In this document: positions 14,709 through 43,288 of the stretch, piece by piece | How positions within the stretch are numbered: position 1 is the first letter of the stretch | Layout of the letters: each line of letters begins with the position of its first letter | DNA from: Sedimenticola sp. | Lineage (GTDB): Bacteria > Pseudomonadota > Gammaproteobacteria > Chromatiales > Chromatiaceae | Assembly (NCBI GenBank): GCA_026989135.1 | Contig: JALSJZ010000132.1 | Location: forward strand, 1-48,453 | DNA: 48,453 bases | Reading direction: 5' to 3' | The notes under the pieces: generated by a model | Told to the model about the DNA's origin: nothing | Databases searched by the model: none | The model's input: the letters and a program-made list of their open reading frames with translations, nothing else | Position numbers and translations under genes: made by a program

Positions 14709-16370
14709 CTATCTTTTTAGCGATTTGAGCATCTTTGTCAGTTCTGCATGACGTTTGTCCGCCTTTCCTGTTCTCTCAACACGATCCAGGTAGCGTCTTG
14801 CCTTGCATAGAAGCTGATCGTCTACACCATTTTTTTTCATCAGCATAATAGAGGCCAACGCAGCATTAAGATTGAATGCCTTGCTGTTGGGCGCCTTCTC
14901 GGATGCCCTCTCAAGCAGCTCCAGTGACTCCTTCAGCTGACCCGACTCTGCCAGCCGGATGCCCTCTTTATTCAATGCGCGCAACTCTTGCGTCGATTTG
15001 CTGATGATCTCTGTCAACTCACCGGCGTGACCTGTCCTCTCCCCCACCTCTCTCAGTCTATCCAGCAGCGCCTCATCATCATGGTTGTTCTCTGCCAGGT
15101 TGCCAACTATGGCGCTGCCAAGCCTCACATCGTCAAGCGTTAGTGCGGTTTCAGCAAGCTTTAGTGAGGCCTCATCTGGAACGACCCCCTGGTTCTCCTG
15201 ATATATTTTTTCCGCCTGACCCAAAAACCTGTTGGCCTCTGCCTTCCCACCTTTACCGGCATGCAGATCAGCCGTTGCAGTCACCACCTGAAGCAGGTCT
15301 ACCGCACTCTCTTTCAGTTGGCCCCTGGCCTCTTTGAGATTGGTTAACGCCTTAAGTGTATCCCCTCTCTCAAGCAGTACCTCATTCATGCCAAGATACT
15401 CTTTGGCTGATTTAAAGCAGGAGTGCGCACCATATTGAATCGCTGACCGATAGGCGCTTGCCGCAATATCCAGCTCTCCATTCTCTTTGGCCAGCTCACC
15501 TAGCGCACACTGGCGAGAGATGGTTTTTGGGGAGATTCTCGAAGCCGTTACCAGTTTTTCCTGCGCCTGTATCTTCTCTTTTAAAGCCAAGTAACATTTG
15601 GCGGACCAATCATAGGCCTCCATGTAATACTGGTTCTCAGCTATTAATTCATCAAACACCGCAACCGCTTTGCCATAGTCTTTCAAATGATAATAAGCCT
15701 GCCCCAAACCAAACCTGGCCCATGGCACCTCTTTCTGTGCCAGTATCTTTTGAAAAAATTCCACTGCTTTTTCATAGCGTTCTGTCTTTAGGTAAAAGCT
15801 GCCCAACAGCTTAGCTACATCAAGCGTGTAGCGGGACTTGCTGAGCAGCTTCTCCTCTGCAATCTTTATTGCATCCGGGTATCGCTTGTCAAACATGGCC
15901 TCATAGATAGCCATCAACTCCTCTTTTTTCTTGATCGCCTTGGTGATGCGGAGCTGCAACAGCTCTTTGGTAAATGGTTTTGCAATATAGTCATCCGGCT
16001 GACACTCAATCGCACCCAGTACACGATACCTCTCTGTTTCGGCAGTGATCATTATGAAGATGCAGCTGGGCTTGATCAGGCCCATGTGATGAGCCTCTTC
16101 CAATATCTGATGCCCATCCTTGCCATCACCCAGGTTGTAGTCGCACAGCACGATGTCGTAGGCATTGTGCCGGATCTTCTCTATGGCTCCTTTACCATTG
16201 CTGGCGAAGTCGGCATTCTCCTCTCCCAGATCCCGCAGCATGCGGCGTACAGCCAGCCGCATGTCAGAAAAATCATCCACAATCAATATCTGGCGCTCAT
16301 TCTCAGACGCTTGCAATCCAACCCGCTCCTTTCGGAACTTTGCCCCTACCAGTATATCGACGCTACTCAT
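14709..16370 (-). CDS. response regulator with C-terminal TPR repeats
   Basis: An N-terminal receiver (about residues 26-145) has the acidic pair D32-D33, phosphoacceptor D77 in L-C-D-Y-N-L-G and D-D-Y-I-A-K-P-F. The remaining ~400 residues are helical with tetratricopeptide repeats, for example L-L-G-S-F-Y-L-K-T-E-R-Y-E-K-A and G-L-G-Q-A-Y-Y-H-L-K-D-Y-G-K-A. It has no DNA-binding domain, so phosphorylation probably controls a protein-protein interaction. The cognate kinase is the next gene. The start ATG lacks a clear ribosome site, and a start a few codons downstream is possible. It is transcribed divergently from the rhodanese gene. Confidence 0.88.
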   Translation of the reverse strand: MSSVDILVGAKFRKERVGLQASENERQILIVDDFSDMRLAVRRMLRDLGEENADFASNGKGAIEKIRHNAYDIVLCDYNLGDGKDGHQILEEAHHMGLIKPSCIFIMITAETERYRVLGAIECQPDDYIAKPFTKELLQLRITKAIKKKEELMAIYEAMFDKRYPDAIKIAEEKLLSKSRYTLDVAKLLGSFYLKTERYEKAVEFFQKILAQKEVPWARFGLGQAYYHLKDYGKAVAVFDELIAENQYYMEAYDWSAKCYLALKEKIQAQEKLVTASRISPKTISRQCALGELAKENGELDIAASAYRSAIQYGAHSCFKSAKEYLGMNEVLLERGDTLKALTNLKEARGQLKESAVDLLQVVTATADLHAGKGGKAEANRFLGQAEKIYQENQGVVPDEASLKLAETALTLDDVRLGSAIVGNLAENNHDDEALLDRLREVGERTGHAGELTEIISKSTQELRALNKEGIRLAESGQLKESLELLERASEKAPNSKAFNLNAALASIMLMKKNGVDDQLLCKARRYLDRVERTGKADKRHAELTKMLKSLKR

Positions 16371-38594: not shown

Positions 38595-40028
38595 TTAACC
38601 CTGCACAGACGTTGGTTCATCAACAACTTGATTGAGTACCTCTGCAAGCCGTTGCACTAATTTGCGGCGCTCAAATCCACCAACAAAATCACTATCTGGA
38701 GAGCATAACCTAGTACCATTCTCTACAAGATTCTGTAACACGGTTTTCAAGGATAAAATATCACCTGGCGGAATAATCCAACCGAGTCGTCCTCGCTCTA
38801 TAATTTCTGACGTAGCCCCCTCTAACGCAAGACAGAGAATTGGTGGGCCGGCAGCGATATATTCAAAAAGTTTTCCGGGGATAACGCCAGATGTCGTTGC
38901 ACCACCATCCACAATAAGTAGCAATACATCCGCGCCTTTCTGCAAGGCCTTGGAGCGGGCATACGGAACATCTGGAAAAAAGTTGAACACCCCTTCTAAC
39001 TCATGCTCAGCTATAAGCTCACTCATTCTTGCGCTGATTTCAGGGGTTACGCCACCGTAATATTCAAAGCGTATACGTTGTCGTGCCTTAGGATTTTCCC
39101 GTAAAAGTCCACCCATGGCTTCAAGCAGCTCATAGCCACGACGGTTTTTAAAAAGACGACCGGCATATACGACTCGCACCATATCAGGCTCACCACCTTC
39201 TGCAATCACTCCATCGAATTCCTCAGGATCATAACCGTTGGTAATGGTCACAAATCTCTCTTCAGCAAGTAATGACAGCCTCTCCCGAACTACCCGGGTT
39301 TTTGGCTCTGATACTGTGATAACAGCACTGGCTGTAGAGACATAATGCCGCTCCAGCAGAATCTCCAGTCGCCGCCGCCAGGGAGGAACCCACTCACGGA
39401 GCACATCACCCGTCCATAGATCCCGGTAATCGGCCACCCATGGAACCCCTGTTTTTTGAGACAAGCGTGCACCAACGATAAGATCCGTAAAATAGGGCGC
39501 TGTGGCAAGAATGACATCAGGCTGAAAATCTCGCACAGCCGCTTCACCCACTTTAACCGCCGGACTACTCCATAGGATGAGATCATCAGGAATGAGCAGA
39601 TAACGATGGGCAATCCGATCAATGACACCCAGCATACTACCCAATATTGTACGCAAACGGCCATGTGATGAAGGGTTTTGATTGAAACCCGCGCTATTTT
39701 CAGTAGTAATTGAGCTTGCCGCTGGCGAAGCGTCTACCGGCTTCTGCTTACTGCCTTTCAAAAACCGCACAAGCCGATCCTTGGGCTTGGGAAGCTTCGC
39801 TCTGTATATCGGCGTACCTTCAGGGATCTCATCCAAAGTATTCAGGTCTACCGGATCCATATCCCCCTGTGACAGCGTCAATACTGCAGCGTCCCAGCCA
39901 AATGTGGGCAAATGCTGACAGAACTTGAGCGGCCGCATGCGGCCGATACCTTTCACCGGAGGGAATTCAGCTGCGACAATCAAGACGCGACGACGAGTAT
40001 TGCCATTCATAATATAGTTATTGGGCAT
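38595..40028 (-). CDS. glycosyltransferase, GT4-like
   Basis: The 477-residue GT-B enzyme opens with V-L-I-V-A-A-E-F-P-P-V-K-G-I-G-R and has V-A-D-Y-R-D-L-W in the N-terminal domain, I-T-N-G-Y-D-P-E at the domain junction, and G-V-I-P-G-K-L-F-E-Y-I-A-A-G in the donor domain. The ATG at 40028 lies inside the left arm of the 150-bp inverted-repeat element; an internal ATG at 40010 is the alternative. It transfers an unknown sugar. It continues into the GNAT-like gene. Confidence 0.88.
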   Translation of the reverse strand: MPNNYIMNGNTRRRVLIVAAEFPPVKGIGRMRPLKFCQHLPTFGWDAAVLTLSQGDMDPVDLNTLDEIPEGTPIYRAKLPKPKDRLVRFLKGSKQKPVDASPAASSITTENSAGFNQNPSSHGRLRTILGSMLGVIDRIAHRYLLIPDDLILWSSPAVKVGEAAVRDFQPDVILATAPYFTDLIVGARLSQKTGVPWVADYRDLWTGDVLREWVPPWRRRLEILLERHYVSTASAVITVSEPKTRVVRERLSLLAEERFVTITNGYDPEEFDGVIAEGGEPDMVRVVYAGRLFKNRRGYELLEAMGGLLRENPKARQRIRFEYYGGVTPEISARMSELIAEHELEGVFNFFPDVPYARSKALQKGADVLLLIVDGGATTSGVIPGKLFEYIAAGPPILCLALEGATSEIIERGRLGWIIPPGDILSLKTVLQNLVENGTRLCSPDSDFVGGFERRKLVQRLAEVLNQVVDEPTSVQG

Positions 40029-40173
40029 CCTTCATTTCCCTTTTTACACTTCACCTGTCATTCAGAAATAATCGGAAGCAAAACCTCAGTCCCGCAGGAA
40101 GTCGCTAGATCTGGCAGGACTAAAGTCCCGCTTCCAAAGTGTAAAATACTTTTTGGACGATATGAAGGATGCC
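40024..40173. repeat. 150-bp element with nested inverted repeats
   Basis: Terminal 12-base arms are perfect: ggcatccttcat (40024-40035) with atgaaggatgcc (40162-40173). Inside them ttttacactt (40042-40051) pairs with aagtgtaaaa (40137-40146), and ggaagc (40074-40079) with gcttcc (40130-40135). A small ggact/agtcc hairpin lies near 40117-40128. The element fills the gap between two minus-strand glycosyltransferase genes and contains the start codon of the downstream one. It resembles a MITE or REPIN-type element, or an extended intercistronic RNA structure. No target-site duplication was identified. Confidence 0.75.
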
Positions 40174-40175
40174 GG

Positions 40176-41375
40176 TTATTGATAGAGTGTGCCAGGTAGA
40201 TCAGCCCAAAGAAGTTCGTCAAAGACCGCTTGAATAAGACCCGCATGCCTATCTATTGCATAATTTTGCAGTGCATCCTGACGGGCGGCATGACCAACCT
40301 GCGCACGGAAATCCGGATCATCAAGAATCTTATTTAAAACTTCCGCCAATCGTTCAGGATCACTTGGCGGCACCAAAAAACCCGTCACACCATCCTTTAC
40401 AATTTCAGGAGGGGCACCGATAGATGTCGCCACAATGGGAGTACCCATCACCATGGCCTCAATCACCACCCTTCCAAAAGGTTCCGGTGATATAGAAGCA
40501 TGAACCACTGCATCAGCAGCCTGGGCATAGAGTGGAATATCATCTCGGTACCCAATAAACTCAATAGCCTCTCCAAGCCCCAATATCTCCACCCGATCCT
40601 GCAATTTATGCAGATACTCCTCCCTACCCGGTGGCGTCTCACCAATGATCACAAATCGCGTATCCGGATGCCTTGCCAAAATCTCTTTTGCGGATTCGAC
40701 AAGCACATGCTGCCCTTTCCACTCCATGATCATCCCTACCATCACAATAAGTCCCTGCCCTGCATCTACCCCCATCTTCTCCCGCAAGGCTGCAACCTCC
40801 TCTGCCGGCCGCAAATGGTAAAGGTTCAAATCAAGCCCTTCCGGAACCATGGTGATACGTTCAAGCGGCACCCCCATATCAAGCAGCGCCTGCCGGACTG
40901 GCCCTGAAATGGCCAGAAACCGTTCCGTCCAACGAATCAACCACTGTGCCAATCGCGAATGTGGGGCAGGAATATCCCGCTCATGAATAACAACAGGCCG
41001 ACCAATCATCCATCCAGCGATCACACCCGATAGATTGGCGATAAAATCATTATTGAGATAGAGCAGATCAGCCTTCTGCTCCCGCGCAACCTTTGCCAGT
41101 TTAAAAGCATAGACCAGTACATCGAGATTCAGCCCTTTTATCAGGGCAGCCAACAACCTATTGCCAGAGTATCGCCAGCGGGAAACATGCACGGTTTCAG
41201 CCACCCCATCAAAACTGGCAAATTTTTCATCCTCCAGTGAATGCACCAGGACTGATCGATAACGATCCCGATCCACATGCTCCAGAAATGTCCTAAGGCT
41301 GATTACCGCACCACCAAACCCTACACCATTCTCCACATATAATACCGTCGCCGGAGGCGGCATCTCAATTAACAT
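40176..41375 (-). CDS. glycosyltransferase, GT4
   Basis: The ~400-residue enzyme starts L-Y-V-E-N-G-V-G-F-G-G-A-V-I-S-L and shows Y-L-N-N-D-F in the N-terminal domain, M-V-P-E-G-L-D at the junction, V-G-M-I-M-E-W-K-G-Q-H, and the GT4 motif P-E-P-F-G-R-V-V-I-E-A-M in the donor domain. The ATG at 41375 is chosen because aagga lies 9 bases upstream and the duplicated fragment at 43288 starts at the same residue; two ATGs just upstream also exist. It is probably the first gene of the operon running to 34183. Its first 64 codons are duplicated at 43097-43288. Confidence 0.9.
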   Translation of the reverse strand: MLIEMPPPATVLYVENGVGFGGAVISLRTFLEHVDRDRYRSVLVHSLEDEKFASFDGVAETVHVSRWRYSGNRLLAALIKGLNLDVLVYAFKLAKVAREQKADLLYLNNDFIANLSGVIAGWMIGRPVVIHERDIPAPHSRLAQWLIRWTERFLAISGPVRQALLDMGVPLERITMVPEGLDLNLYHLRPAEEVAALREKMGVDAGQGLIVMVGMIMEWKGQHVLVESAKEILARHPDTRFVIIGETPPGREEYLHKLQDRVEILGLGEAIEFIGYRDDIPLYAQAADAVVHASISPEPFGRVVIEAMVMGTPIVATSIGAPPEIVKDGVTGFLVPPSDPERLAEVLNKILDDPDFRAQVGHAARQDALQNYAIDRHAGLIQAVFDELLWADLPGTLYQ

Positions 41376-41464
41376 CTGCATCATTCCTTATTATATTTTT
41401 ATGGCGCTTGTAGGTACGTGAATAAAACAAGTTGAACGTTCTCTCGCCTGATATCGTTGCAAAT

Positions 41465-41519: not shown

Positions 41520-41951
41520 TTATGCCTTCCCATGTTGATTAATTGTGACTATTCCACACAACTCATCAGGTGTGTAGATAGGCAAATTAGTATTTTTATA
41601 ATCTTTTGTATTTCTAGTTACAAGACCTTCAACTTTGCAGCATTCACCAGAATAATATTGAACAGCATCTTCAAAATCACCAAATGCTGAGTTTACAGAT
41701 AGCTCTAGAACAATTGAATTAACTTCAGCAATATTGAAGATAGTTAACAGCTTTTTTATCTCAATATTTGCCTGCTTTCTGTTTACTGCTTTTACAATGA
41801 GATAATCTAAAGTTGCGATTGTAGTAGCACATAAATAACCTTCAATCTTTTTACTTTCTACCATTCCCACAAGATTTGAAGAAATCTCAACAAACTTTTT
41901 TCTGTTAAGCAGAACATCAAGAATAATGTTTGTATCAAATAGAATTCTCAA
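41520..41951 (-). CDS. PIN-domain toxin (VapC-like ribonuclease)
   Basis: A 143-residue PIN domain protein beginning I-L-F-D6-T-N-I-I-L-D, with further acidic metal-ligand candidates D92 and D95 in F-G-D-F-E-D-A-V-Q and the closing V-T-R-N-T-K-D-Y. PIN toxins cleave RNA with Mg or Mn ions. Its ATG overlaps the stop of the antitoxin gene by 4 bases. It is A+T-rich compared with the surrounding glycosyltransferase genes, consistent with acquisition as part of a module. Confidence 0.9.
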   Translation of the reverse strand: MRILFDTNIILDVLLNRKKFVEISSNLVGMVESKKIEGYLCATTIATLDYLIVKAVNRKQANIEIKKLLTIFNIAEVNSIVLELSVNSAFGDFEDAVQYYSGECCKVEGLVTRNTKDYKNTNLPIYTPDELCGIVTINQHGKA

Positions 41952-42184
41952 AGGTATTTTTCCTCTAAATGCCTTTTATAATCATCTTCTTCAATCTGAC
42001 TTGATTCCAAAACCCCAATCAAAGATCGAGTGATAGGCGGTGTTTCTGATTTTTTACCTTTCTGAGTCAATATTTTAAAATAATCAGATACAACCTGCGA
42101 AAGAGACTTATCATGTTGTTTTGCATAAGTTTTCGCTTGCTGTATCAGTGCATCTTCTAACCTAAGTGTCAATTTTGTTTGCAT
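41948..42184 (-). CDS. antitoxin of the PIN toxin (DUF6364-like, ribbon-helix-helix type)
   Basis: The ATG at 42184, with ggagag upstream, gives 78 residues. M-Q-T-K-L-T-L-R-L-E resembles the beta strand of a ribbon-helix-helix DNA-binding fold, followed by A-K-T-Y-A-K-Q-H-D-K-S-L-S-Q-V-V-S-D-Y; this pattern matches DUF6364-type proteins. The acidic C terminus (Q-I-E-E-D-D-Y) is a likely toxin-binding tail. It overlaps the PIN gene by 4 bases. A longer frame from 42208 lacks a ribosome site. Confidence 0.82.
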   Translation of the reverse strand: MQTKLTLRLEDALIQQAKTYAKQHDKSLSQVVSDYFKILTQKGKKSETPPITRSLIGVLESSQIEEDDYKRHLEEKYL

Positions 42185-42196
42185 AACAGCTCTCCG

Positions 42197-42237
42197 CGTG
42201 ACGTGCATTTATTATTTAATAATACGTCGCGATCACG
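42197..42237. promoter_or_regulatory. palindromic operator candidate of the PIN module
   Basis: A 13-base palindrome attatttaataat (42211-42223) lies inside outer arms cgtga/tcacg (42197-42201 and 42233-42237), immediately upstream of the antitoxin start. Toxin-antitoxin operons are usually autoregulated at such sites, but binding here is inferred. Confidence 0.4.
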
Positions 42238-42441
42238 TGTGCGTCAACAACCCGAGGGCAGGATATCGTGGATTATCCGCATCAAAGGCTCCGGAATTTC
42301 ACCCCATCAGGGAGGGGGCGGCAGGATTGGTGTGGAATAGACAGCAACAACCGGCATTTTGTAGTGATGTTTTTGTCATGCCAGGCTCTTTTAGCACCAC
42401 AAAAACACTGCAAAAAAATATCCGAGGTGTTTTTATTACGC

Positions 42442-42726
42442 CTATTTACGTTCATCTGCTTTGGTATAGATTAGCCCTCGATCCCTTTTACCAACAGCAA
42501 TTACGTAAACAACTATTTCATTATCGTTCACTTCATACACCAAGCGATAGCCTACCGAACGCAGCTTGATTTTATACACACTTTTAAAACCGTGTAACTG
42601 GCTTGCTGAGTTATGTGGGTTTTCTGCTCTCTCCTCTAGCTTCTTTTTGAATTGTTTTCGTATTGGCGGAGCTAGTTTCTTCCACTCTTTCAAAGCGCTT
42701 GGCAAAAACTTGATTCTATAACTCAT
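42442..42726 (-). CDS. RelE/ParE-family toxin
   Basis: A 94-residue RelE-fold protein: Y-R-I-K-F-L-P-S-A-L-K-E-W-K-K-L, the A-S-Q-L-H-G-F-K-S-V-Y-K-I-K-L-R-S turn, and G-Y-R-L-V-Y-E-V-N with V-G-K-R-D-R near the end. RelE toxins cleave mRNA in the ribosomal A site. The ATG at 42726 overlaps the antitoxin stop by 11 bases, the normal order for this class. It lies in the same island as the PIN module and on the same strand. Confidence 0.92.
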   Translation of the reverse strand: MSYRIKFLPSALKEWKKLAPPIRKQFKKKLEERAENPHNSASQLHGFKSVYKIKLRSVGYRLVYEVNDNEIVVYVIAVGKRDRGLIYTKADERK

Positions 42727-42967
42727 CAAGATTTACTTCTATCGCATTTTCTTTTTCCCCTGCCCGGTCTCTCACGGTTTGGGCCAACTCAGAATCTTCC
42801 AACTTGTCCATTAGCCATTCATAGGTTTCTGCAGGTATGAGATACGCTGCTGGAACATTGTGATTGAGTATTGCGATAGGGGCACCCTCAGCCTCATTAA
42901 GGAGAGCCGTTGGGTTTTTCTTTAATTCTGAAATACTTGCGGAGCAACTGGACAGTACTTGCCTCAT
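42716..42967 (-). CDS. Phd/YefM-family antitoxin
   Basis: An 83-residue antitoxin with the family layout: S-I-S-E-L-K-K-N-P at the N-terminal DNA-binding fold, then A-P-I-A-I-L-N-H-N-V-P-A-A-Y-L-I-P and Y-E-W-L-M-D-K-L-E-D, and an acidic tail (I-E-V-N-L-D-E-L). It would neutralise the RelE toxin and repress the operon. A tgaggtg ribosome site precedes the ATG, and its end overlaps the toxin gene. Confidence 0.9.
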   Translation of the reverse strand: MRQVLSSCSASISELKKNPTALLNEAEGAPIAILNHNVPAAYLIPAETYEWLMDKLEDSELAQTVRDRAGEKENAIEVNLDEL

Positions 42968-43027
42968 TAGAACACCTCAAAAACAAACCATATTTAGAGC
43001 TTAATATAGCCCTCATTTTTGGTTTTT

Positions 43028-43288
43028 TCAAGATTTCTTTAGATTTAAGGGTATACTGATCTCAGTTTTCAAAATTGATCTTGGTACAGAGGTCAAAATA
43101 TGCGCGGTCTCAGCTATCCCATCAAAGCTGGCAAATTTTTCATCCTTCAGTGAATGCAAAAGAACTGACCGATAACGATCCTGATCTACATGTTCCAAAC
43201 ATGTCCTGAGACTAATGACGGCACCACCAAACCCTACACCATTCTCCACATATAATACTGTCGCCGTGGGAGGTGACTCGATCAGCAT
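43028..43288 (-). pseudogene. duplicated 5' fragment of the 40176 glycosyltransferase gene
   Basis: The first 64 codons (43097-43288) align without gaps to codons 1-64 of the complete glycosyltransferase gene at 40176-41375, with 55 of 64 residues identical. After A-E-T-A-H-I the similarity ends and the frame runs 22 unrelated codons to a stop. A ribosome site (aaagga) is retained. With the intact gene on the other side, it brackets the two toxin-antitoxin modules. It cannot make a functional transferase. Confidence 0.92.

Follow-up and report, generated by a model that had tools for sequence, protein, structure and literature searches.

Organization of the GT1-GT2 junction

The window, the whole 48,453-nucleotide stretch of Sedimenticola sp. 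DNA analysed here, carries two glycosyltransferase genes that are both read from the minus strand, hereafter named GT1 (upstream) and GT2 (downstream). Their locus also encodes the exosortase A associated hydrolases 1 and 2 (TIGR03100 and TIGR03101). A nested repeat element lies between the two genes, and the features of this junction are as follows.

38595-40010, minus strand: GT2, downstream gene, glycosyltransferase, given from its probable ancestral start (the longest ORF reaches 40028)
40016-40023, minus strand: target-site duplication, GT2 side, CAATAACT, 7 of 8 positions identical to 40174-40181
40024-40051, minus strand: MITE short arm, a 12-bp terminus and then TTTCCCTTTTTACACTT; contains the ATG at 40028-40026
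40074-40095, plus strand: REP copy 1, degenerate, GGAAGC..AGTCCCGC; the version of the sister species is more canonical
40114-40135, minus strand: REP copy 2, GGAAGCGGGACTTTAGTCCTGC; with copy 1 it makes up a 62-bp REPIN-like doublet, 40074-40135
40136-40173, minus strand: MITE long arm, GGCATCCTTCAT, a spacer and AAAAAGTATTTTACACTTT
40174-40181, minus strand: target-site duplication, GT1 end, CAATAACC; includes the stop codon TAA at 40178-40176
40176-41384, minus strand: GT1, upstream gene, glycosyltransferase (Glycos_transf_1); its locus also holds exosortase A (XrtA) associated hydrolases

The first-pass annotation of this DNA had described perfect terminal arms, inner paired segments and an ATG inside one arm, and all three were confirmed. 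Positions 40024-40035 and 40162-40173 form perfect 12-bp inverted repeats (15 nt at 93%), the inner arms 40042-40051 and 40137-40146 match at 10 of 10 positions, and the ATG lies at 40028-40026 on the minus strand. From their perfect ends the arms extend, with indels, to about 28-38 nt. The element measures 150 bp with the doublet and 88 bp without it, both sizes lying in the 70-300 bp range of MITEs, and it is without coding capacity. On the minus strand, GT1 ends in CAATAA (stop), followed by CC, the element from 40173 to 40024, CAATAACTATATT and the ATG of GT2. An 8-bp direct repeat with one mismatch (40016-40023 and 40174-40181), absent from the earlier annotation, flanks the element and includes the GT1 stop codon.

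Inverted pairs with arms of at least 10 nt are about as frequent in the window as expected (15 observed, around 11 expected), while those with arms of at least 12 nt number 3 against 0.68 expected. Of the 15 pairs, the 150-bp element alone is immediately bordered by a direct repeat of 6 bp or more, its own being 7 bp long. Simulating the window 60 times under a Markov-1 model produced a single pair with a repeat of 7 bp or longer (0.017 per window). No Rfam match was found within the window.

Two toxin-antitoxin-like modules were also observed, one at 41520-42208 (a PIN domain with a DUF6364 partner) and one at 42442-42967 (ParE/RelE with Phd/YefM). Beyond them, at 43028-43288, the N-terminus of GT1 is present a second time in truncated form, as recognised by eye. 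With both modules placed between it and GT1, the layout of 41520-43288 looks as if GT1 had been duplicated around insertions.

The outer arms define a MITE family present in other genera

A BLAST search with the whole element in six genomes of the genus returned the orthologue and REP parts only, and among 116 genomes of the family the outer arms gave no match beyond their own locus at E <= 1e-6. When the arms were joined without the REPIN and searched at E <= 1e-3, 4 of 210 genomes of the order matched: the genome of the window itself, that of a sister species (G003), and G077 and G030, which belong to two other genera of the same family. This query gave 149 first-look candidates in G077, of which 4 were scored, and two matches in G030. 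In the copies of both genomes, the two termini are the same 12-mer or a near match to it. Subterminally, one side has AAAAGTAnTTTACAC and the opposite side TTTCyyGTTTACAC, which reproduces the long/short asymmetry seen in the window.

Thirty contig stretches of G077 (317,292 bases) contained 18 arm pairs, 12 of them non-overlapping and shorter than 200 bp; of 20 trials with shuffled arms on the same stretches, 15 gave no pair and none gave more than 4. A targeted search added four loci in G077 and one in G030, and ten further G030 contigs (94 kb) held no arm pairs. These five loci and 11 of the 12 non-overlapping G077 copies make up a set of 16 copies, the pair left out as doubtful being a 63/100-bp pair at L228 with flanks that match at 1 or 4 of 8 positions. 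Across the 16 copies, the subterminal long arm scored 10.1 (shuffled -4.4, sd 2.2, maximum 2.9) and the short arm 5.1 (shuffled -1.1, sd 1.7, maximum 4.5). Among 15 other family copies with both flanks available, the 8-bp target duplication is exact in five, matches at 6 of 8 positions in one and at 4 or fewer in nine. It matches at 7 of 8 positions in the window (CAATAACC and CAATAACT) and likewise in G003. Because the copies in other genera share both arms, their asymmetry and the 8-bp target duplication, we consider the element to be a REPIN-like doublet nested in a MITE. The insertion that had been put down to a MITE or a REPIN thus turned out to be both.

Apart from the G003 orthologue, no further copies with MITE arms were found among the matches listed for the genome of the window and its genus. 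When the own genome was scanned with a 16-mer of the arm, allowing 3 mismatches, 199 weak matches came up and the reversed control had 22; we ascribe this excess of single arms to a putative codon bias. Among the fetched loci L001-L075 and L155-L193, arm pairs were limited to the element locus and the G003 orthologue, plus a weak pair in L052 that has 4 mismatches, measures 393 bp and lacks a duplication. A 19-mer long-arm match in G009 (2 mismatches) is a lone arm for which no partner was seen. Other copies thus exist for both parts of the element, those of the REP part in its own genome (see below) and those of the MITE part in other genomes only.

No parent IS with the same ends was seen in the 30 contig stretches of G077 and 12 of G030, which represent a minor part of both genomes and in which arms at contig ends are not judgeable, and the sampled DNA gave no DDE-type transposase for the MITE. 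Plasmids showed no match to the element, and viral contigs gave none to two arm patterns and a full-arm pattern.

The centre of the element is a dispersed REP doublet

Searched in the own assembly (2.6 Mb in 189 contigs) with no more than 2 mismatches, the 18-mer GCGGGACTTTAGTCCYGC gave 37 matches over the two strands, and the reversed control gave one. As counted from the listing, these matches correspond to 22 places. With the rule relaxed to 4 mismatches to a 19-mer, and with loci sharing an identical core counted once, 37 sequence-distinct REP clusters were obtained from the loci fetched in four genomes of the genus. Eighteen of them are in the own genome, where 15 lie outside ORFs of at least 120 aa in the fetched loci; one cluster inside an ORF, with 4 mismatches (L035, position 2078), is probably a chance match. 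Many REPs are arranged as head-out pairs, GGAAGC...GCTTCC, of 51-66 bp; the rest comprise single REPs, head-in arrangements and doublets collapsed into a single palindrome. In the window, two inverted REPs and their spacer form a hairpin at 40074-40135, one of the REPs being degenerate. Of 398 sampled genomes of the phylum, one, that of the window, contains the exact REP 19-mer.

None of the 26 Y1_Tnp loci of the genus carries the REP of the element within flanks of up to 1.5 kb, as far as the contig reaches. The own genome has a single clear RAYT (NF047646, 200.7 bits; a second scores 75.6, below the cut-off of 80), and its flanking palindrome is a different one; a RAYT gene of this genome at L166 (C67) stands between GTGGGCAC..GTGCCCAC palindromes. 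The REP bears no terminal GTAG (or CGTC) tag and ends in GGAAG instead; untagged REP-like families are acknowledged in the available text of PMC3733652. Since no cognate RAYT flanked by the same REP was found, we retain the label “REPIN-like”.

Several further observations concern these repeats. Four loci of the own genome (L002, L003, L015 and L024) have in common a larger repeat around the REP doublet, with a left flank GAGAATCyGCCCC... and a right flank ...TGATGAGAG.CTGTC in three of them, altered in L002; in two of the four, the doublet is collapsed to one palindrome. One viral contig holds the exact 19-mer of the genus's REP (L194:5328-5346). Repeats containing GTGGGCAC also turn up among the G077 matches listed. 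A pair of loci from G004 and G005 (L190 and L067) was considered as one locus without and with the doublet. It is not relied on because the right flank alone aligns well, the left doing so over little more than a dozen bases.

History of the junction and start codon of GT2

The sister species G003, which matches JAJRWL010000205 (MAG Dive96_bin2.191), has an orthologous nested element between GT1 and GT2, both genes being 93% identical to those of the window; among 210 family genomes, it alone has a close GT2. In G003, a module of a MazE/AbrB-type antitoxin and a Fic/Doc toxin lies between the element and GT2 (L039, 753-1509). This module fills precisely the space from the MITE to GT2 and is bordered by TAAC at either end; the G003 junction has received two insertions that are unrelated to each other.

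In two more distant relatives, GT1 and GT2 are neighbours without the element between them. In Ectothiorhodospira shaposhnikovii (L077; GT1 61% and GT2 62% identical), stop and start are separated by 8 nt, and in another gammaproteobacterial MAG (L078; 57% and 61%) by 1 nt. Removal of the element and one duplication from the window leaves TAA, 7 nt and ATG. An empty arrangement is thus seen in relatives at the level of gene order; no alignable empty DNA site was found in them, and the ancestral junction is for this reason a reconstruction.

It had been suggested that the element supplies the start codon of GT2 and now controls its translation. Read from 40010, the GT2 product begins with MNGNTRRRVLIV, which aligns at equal offset with MTARPHRRVLIV of Ectothiorhodospira and MNSNTRRRVL of the sister species; the L078 protein starts four residues later in this alignment. 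These alignments make the ATG at 40010, 18 nt downstream of the arm ATG, the probable ancestral start, and the arm ATG (40028) is probably not the real start of GT2. An ATG is present at 29 of the 32 ends of the 16 other MITE copies and is thus intrinsic to the MITE end; the 12-mer is perfect at 17 of these ends. The longest ORF leading outward from such an ATG has 67 aa, one reading frame in this survey having left its contig after 1 codon. In G003, the same arm ATG reads into the antitoxin frame (121 codons) and not into GT2. We therefore do not support the proposal that the element provides the start codon, nor that its ATG governs translation. No Shine-Dalgarno match of at least 4 nt was found within 20 nt before 40010 in the window, nor at the equivalent place in the reconstructed junction, G003 or Ectothiorhodospira; L078 has one match, and the arm ATG has one of 4 nt.

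Predicted RNA structure and alternative explanations

The minus (mRNA) strand of the element folds at -67.4 kcal/mol (z -7.48, none of 200 shuffles as good), and the plus strand has a z of -4.77. In this prediction the arm ATG has an unpaired probability of 0.00 in the free mRNA, so the earlier statement that arm pairing hides this codon agrees with the model. Given that the arm ATG is predicted to be fully paired, it may at best act as a possible added start. Between the two species compared, no RNA structure is conserved. Sense and antisense folds are -67.4 and -51.9 in the window and -57.3 and -64.1 in G003, so that the better-folding strand switches. Fifteen pairs of the window fold have changed between the two species, of which 10 still pair and 5 break, and the structure was not kept on the mRNA strand in the two sequences compared. 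Selection on mRNA-strand pairing, with six G-U pairs and no REP-stem mismatch in the window, was considered and dropped because G003 shows the reverse. This two-species sequence comparison does not show selection for an RNA switch. A sigma-70-like match on the plus strand does not rise above chance, and nothing resembling a terminator was detected.

The same structure could still be read as a control device in which the arms hide the arm ATG and a ribosome ending GT1 opens the upstream arm, so that GT2 would be translated only with GT1. The GT1 stop codon is 2 nt from the arm, and holding open the 13-15 nt after it raises the modelled unpaired probability of the ATG to 0.34; the arms, moreover, are perfect in the window, whereas in G003, in which GT2 does not directly follow, each arm carries a single change. 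In the same model, however, the accessibility of the candidate binding site AGGGAA drops from 0.48 to 0.11. The arms are the ends of a mobile element, both equally perfect in 5 of the 16 other copies at unrelated sites, pair conservation is not strand-specific in the two species, and the probable native start lies outside the arm. We therefore regard such a device as improbable. An action of the stem on mRNA decay or processing rather than translation, by stabilising the GT1 mRNA or through RNase cleavage, is less improbable but still unlikely. Some REP and MITE RNAs are known to act in this way, REPs can stabilise mRNA, and REP effects near stop codons are known in E. coli. The intercistronic hairpin is very stable, and the element differs from its G003 orthologue at 19 of 168 sites against 59 of 194 (GT1) and 35 of 231 (GT2) fourfold sites. 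By these raw counts, the element decays no faster than fourfold sites, but its structure is not retained on one strand.

The outer arms could finally be due to chance or be part of a REPIN with long flanks and no MITE. REP doublets are indeed dispersed in the genome, and a REP locus of the genus (G005) has an upstream AAAAAGnATTTTACAnTT with 1 mismatch. Against this, arms without the REP occur in many copies in G077 and G030, some with target duplications of their own, which makes this explanation very improbable.

Copies of one MITE scaffold carry different palindromic cores

The MITE copies of G077 have different centres. Five short copies (92-98 bp) carry a ATCGTTCCCACGC..GCGTGGGAACGAT palindrome near the position that the doublet has in the window. 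Copies of 129 bp have this palindrome plus a second one, and copies of 131-132 bp have a quite different core without it. This palindrome is not confined to the MITE. In the G077 sample, 45 clusters match one 13-mer half of the ATCGTTCCCACGC palindrome at up to 2 mismatches, some of them representing another repeat; counted from the listing, 20 have both halves, and 6 lie between both MITE arms. A second MITE-like family, which has TTCTACTTTGTCA ends and is unrelated to the first, also holds the palindrome in four of seven copies. One G077 locus (L220:15930-16050) is a hybrid, at 15949, in which the palindrome joins a GGCATCC-type arm to one of the TTCTACTTTGTCA type, suggesting an arm exchange between two MITE families through REP-like cores.

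REP-type palindromes in MITEs thus recur in two genera, and the same scaffold holds different ones in G077 and in the window. They may have come in by REP transposition, by recombination or through shared descent. We tentatively propose that this mobile element may be modular, the GGCATCC-arm scaffold repeatedly taking a host REP-like palindrome as an interchangeable core (the GGAAGCGGGACT doublet here, ATCGTTCCCACGC in G077), and that shared palindromes could let unrelated MITEs exchange arms.

Discussion

A MITE, which now has a REPIN-like doublet nested in it, was very probably inserted at the stop/start junction of GT1 and GT2, and the arm ATG belongs to its end. The interpretation as a MITE/REPIN holds, with a richer structure than first proposed, and the reading as a start-codon control is not supported. 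Before the insertion, GT2 would have started 7 nt past the GT1 stop and lacked a Shine-Dalgarno match, an arrangement that fits the expectation for translational coupling. Judging by the common site and flanks, an 88-bp MITE, with 12-bp ends in longer asymmetric arms and an 8-bp duplication, would have landed at this junction in the common ancestor of this Sedimenticola species and its sister, presumably moved in trans by a DDE-type transposase. Its centre is occupied by the 62-bp REPIN-like doublet, made of a palindrome dispersed in the genus, which may have arrived earlier or later than the MITE insertion. The two genes would since have been separated by 165 nt bridged by a strong RNA hairpin. 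The duplication would leave a TAA 7 nt ahead of the native ATG, and the arm ATG would add at most a possible, base-paired upstream start of six codons. The most likely effect, as we infer it, is that the close coupling of GT1 and GT2 was lost through the insertion.

As a class, bacterial MITEs show target duplication and an intergenic position, and the element has both. In the available text of PMC3733652, bacterial MITEs (RUP, NEMIS, ERIC, Nezha and others) are described as having 70-300 bp, terminal inverted repeats and no coding capacity. By that text, the element is like them in all three respects. It is unlike them in its asymmetric long/short arms and in a centre filled by other palindromic repeats. 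REPINs, in the text available of Bertels and Rainey 2011 (PMC3116915), consist of two inverted REP palindromes and a spacer, form a hairpin and are dispersed. As compared with that account, the doublet likewise has inverted REPs, a spacer, a hairpin and a dispersal mostly outside long ORFs, whereas it ends in GGAAG and not GTAG, lacks a cognate RAYT among the loci found, and is nested in a MITE with a target duplication. The available text of PMC3733652 also describes double inverted repeats of Pseudomonas, which flank two RAYT-type genes and contain degenerate REP units and unrelated stem-loops. As portrayed there, these resemble the element in joining a REP unit with an unrelated palindrome. 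Unlike it, they flank transposase genes and recur in hundreds, whereas the REP of the element lies inside a MITE with an 8-bp duplication. Among the literature matches listed for the arm and palindrome strings, no title was that of a paper on bacterial repeats, and a literature search for nested MITE/REP elements found no description.

At this locus, a transposition history takes the place of a tempting regulatory story, and a MITE end with a chance ATG can produce a false upstream start in gene calls. That REP-type palindromes are nested in MITEs in two genera of the same family is relevant to the recombination and spread of small repeats. If the proposed modularity is true, REPs that insert or recombine into the middle of a MITE would offer a general way of forming new nested elements able to move as a whole.
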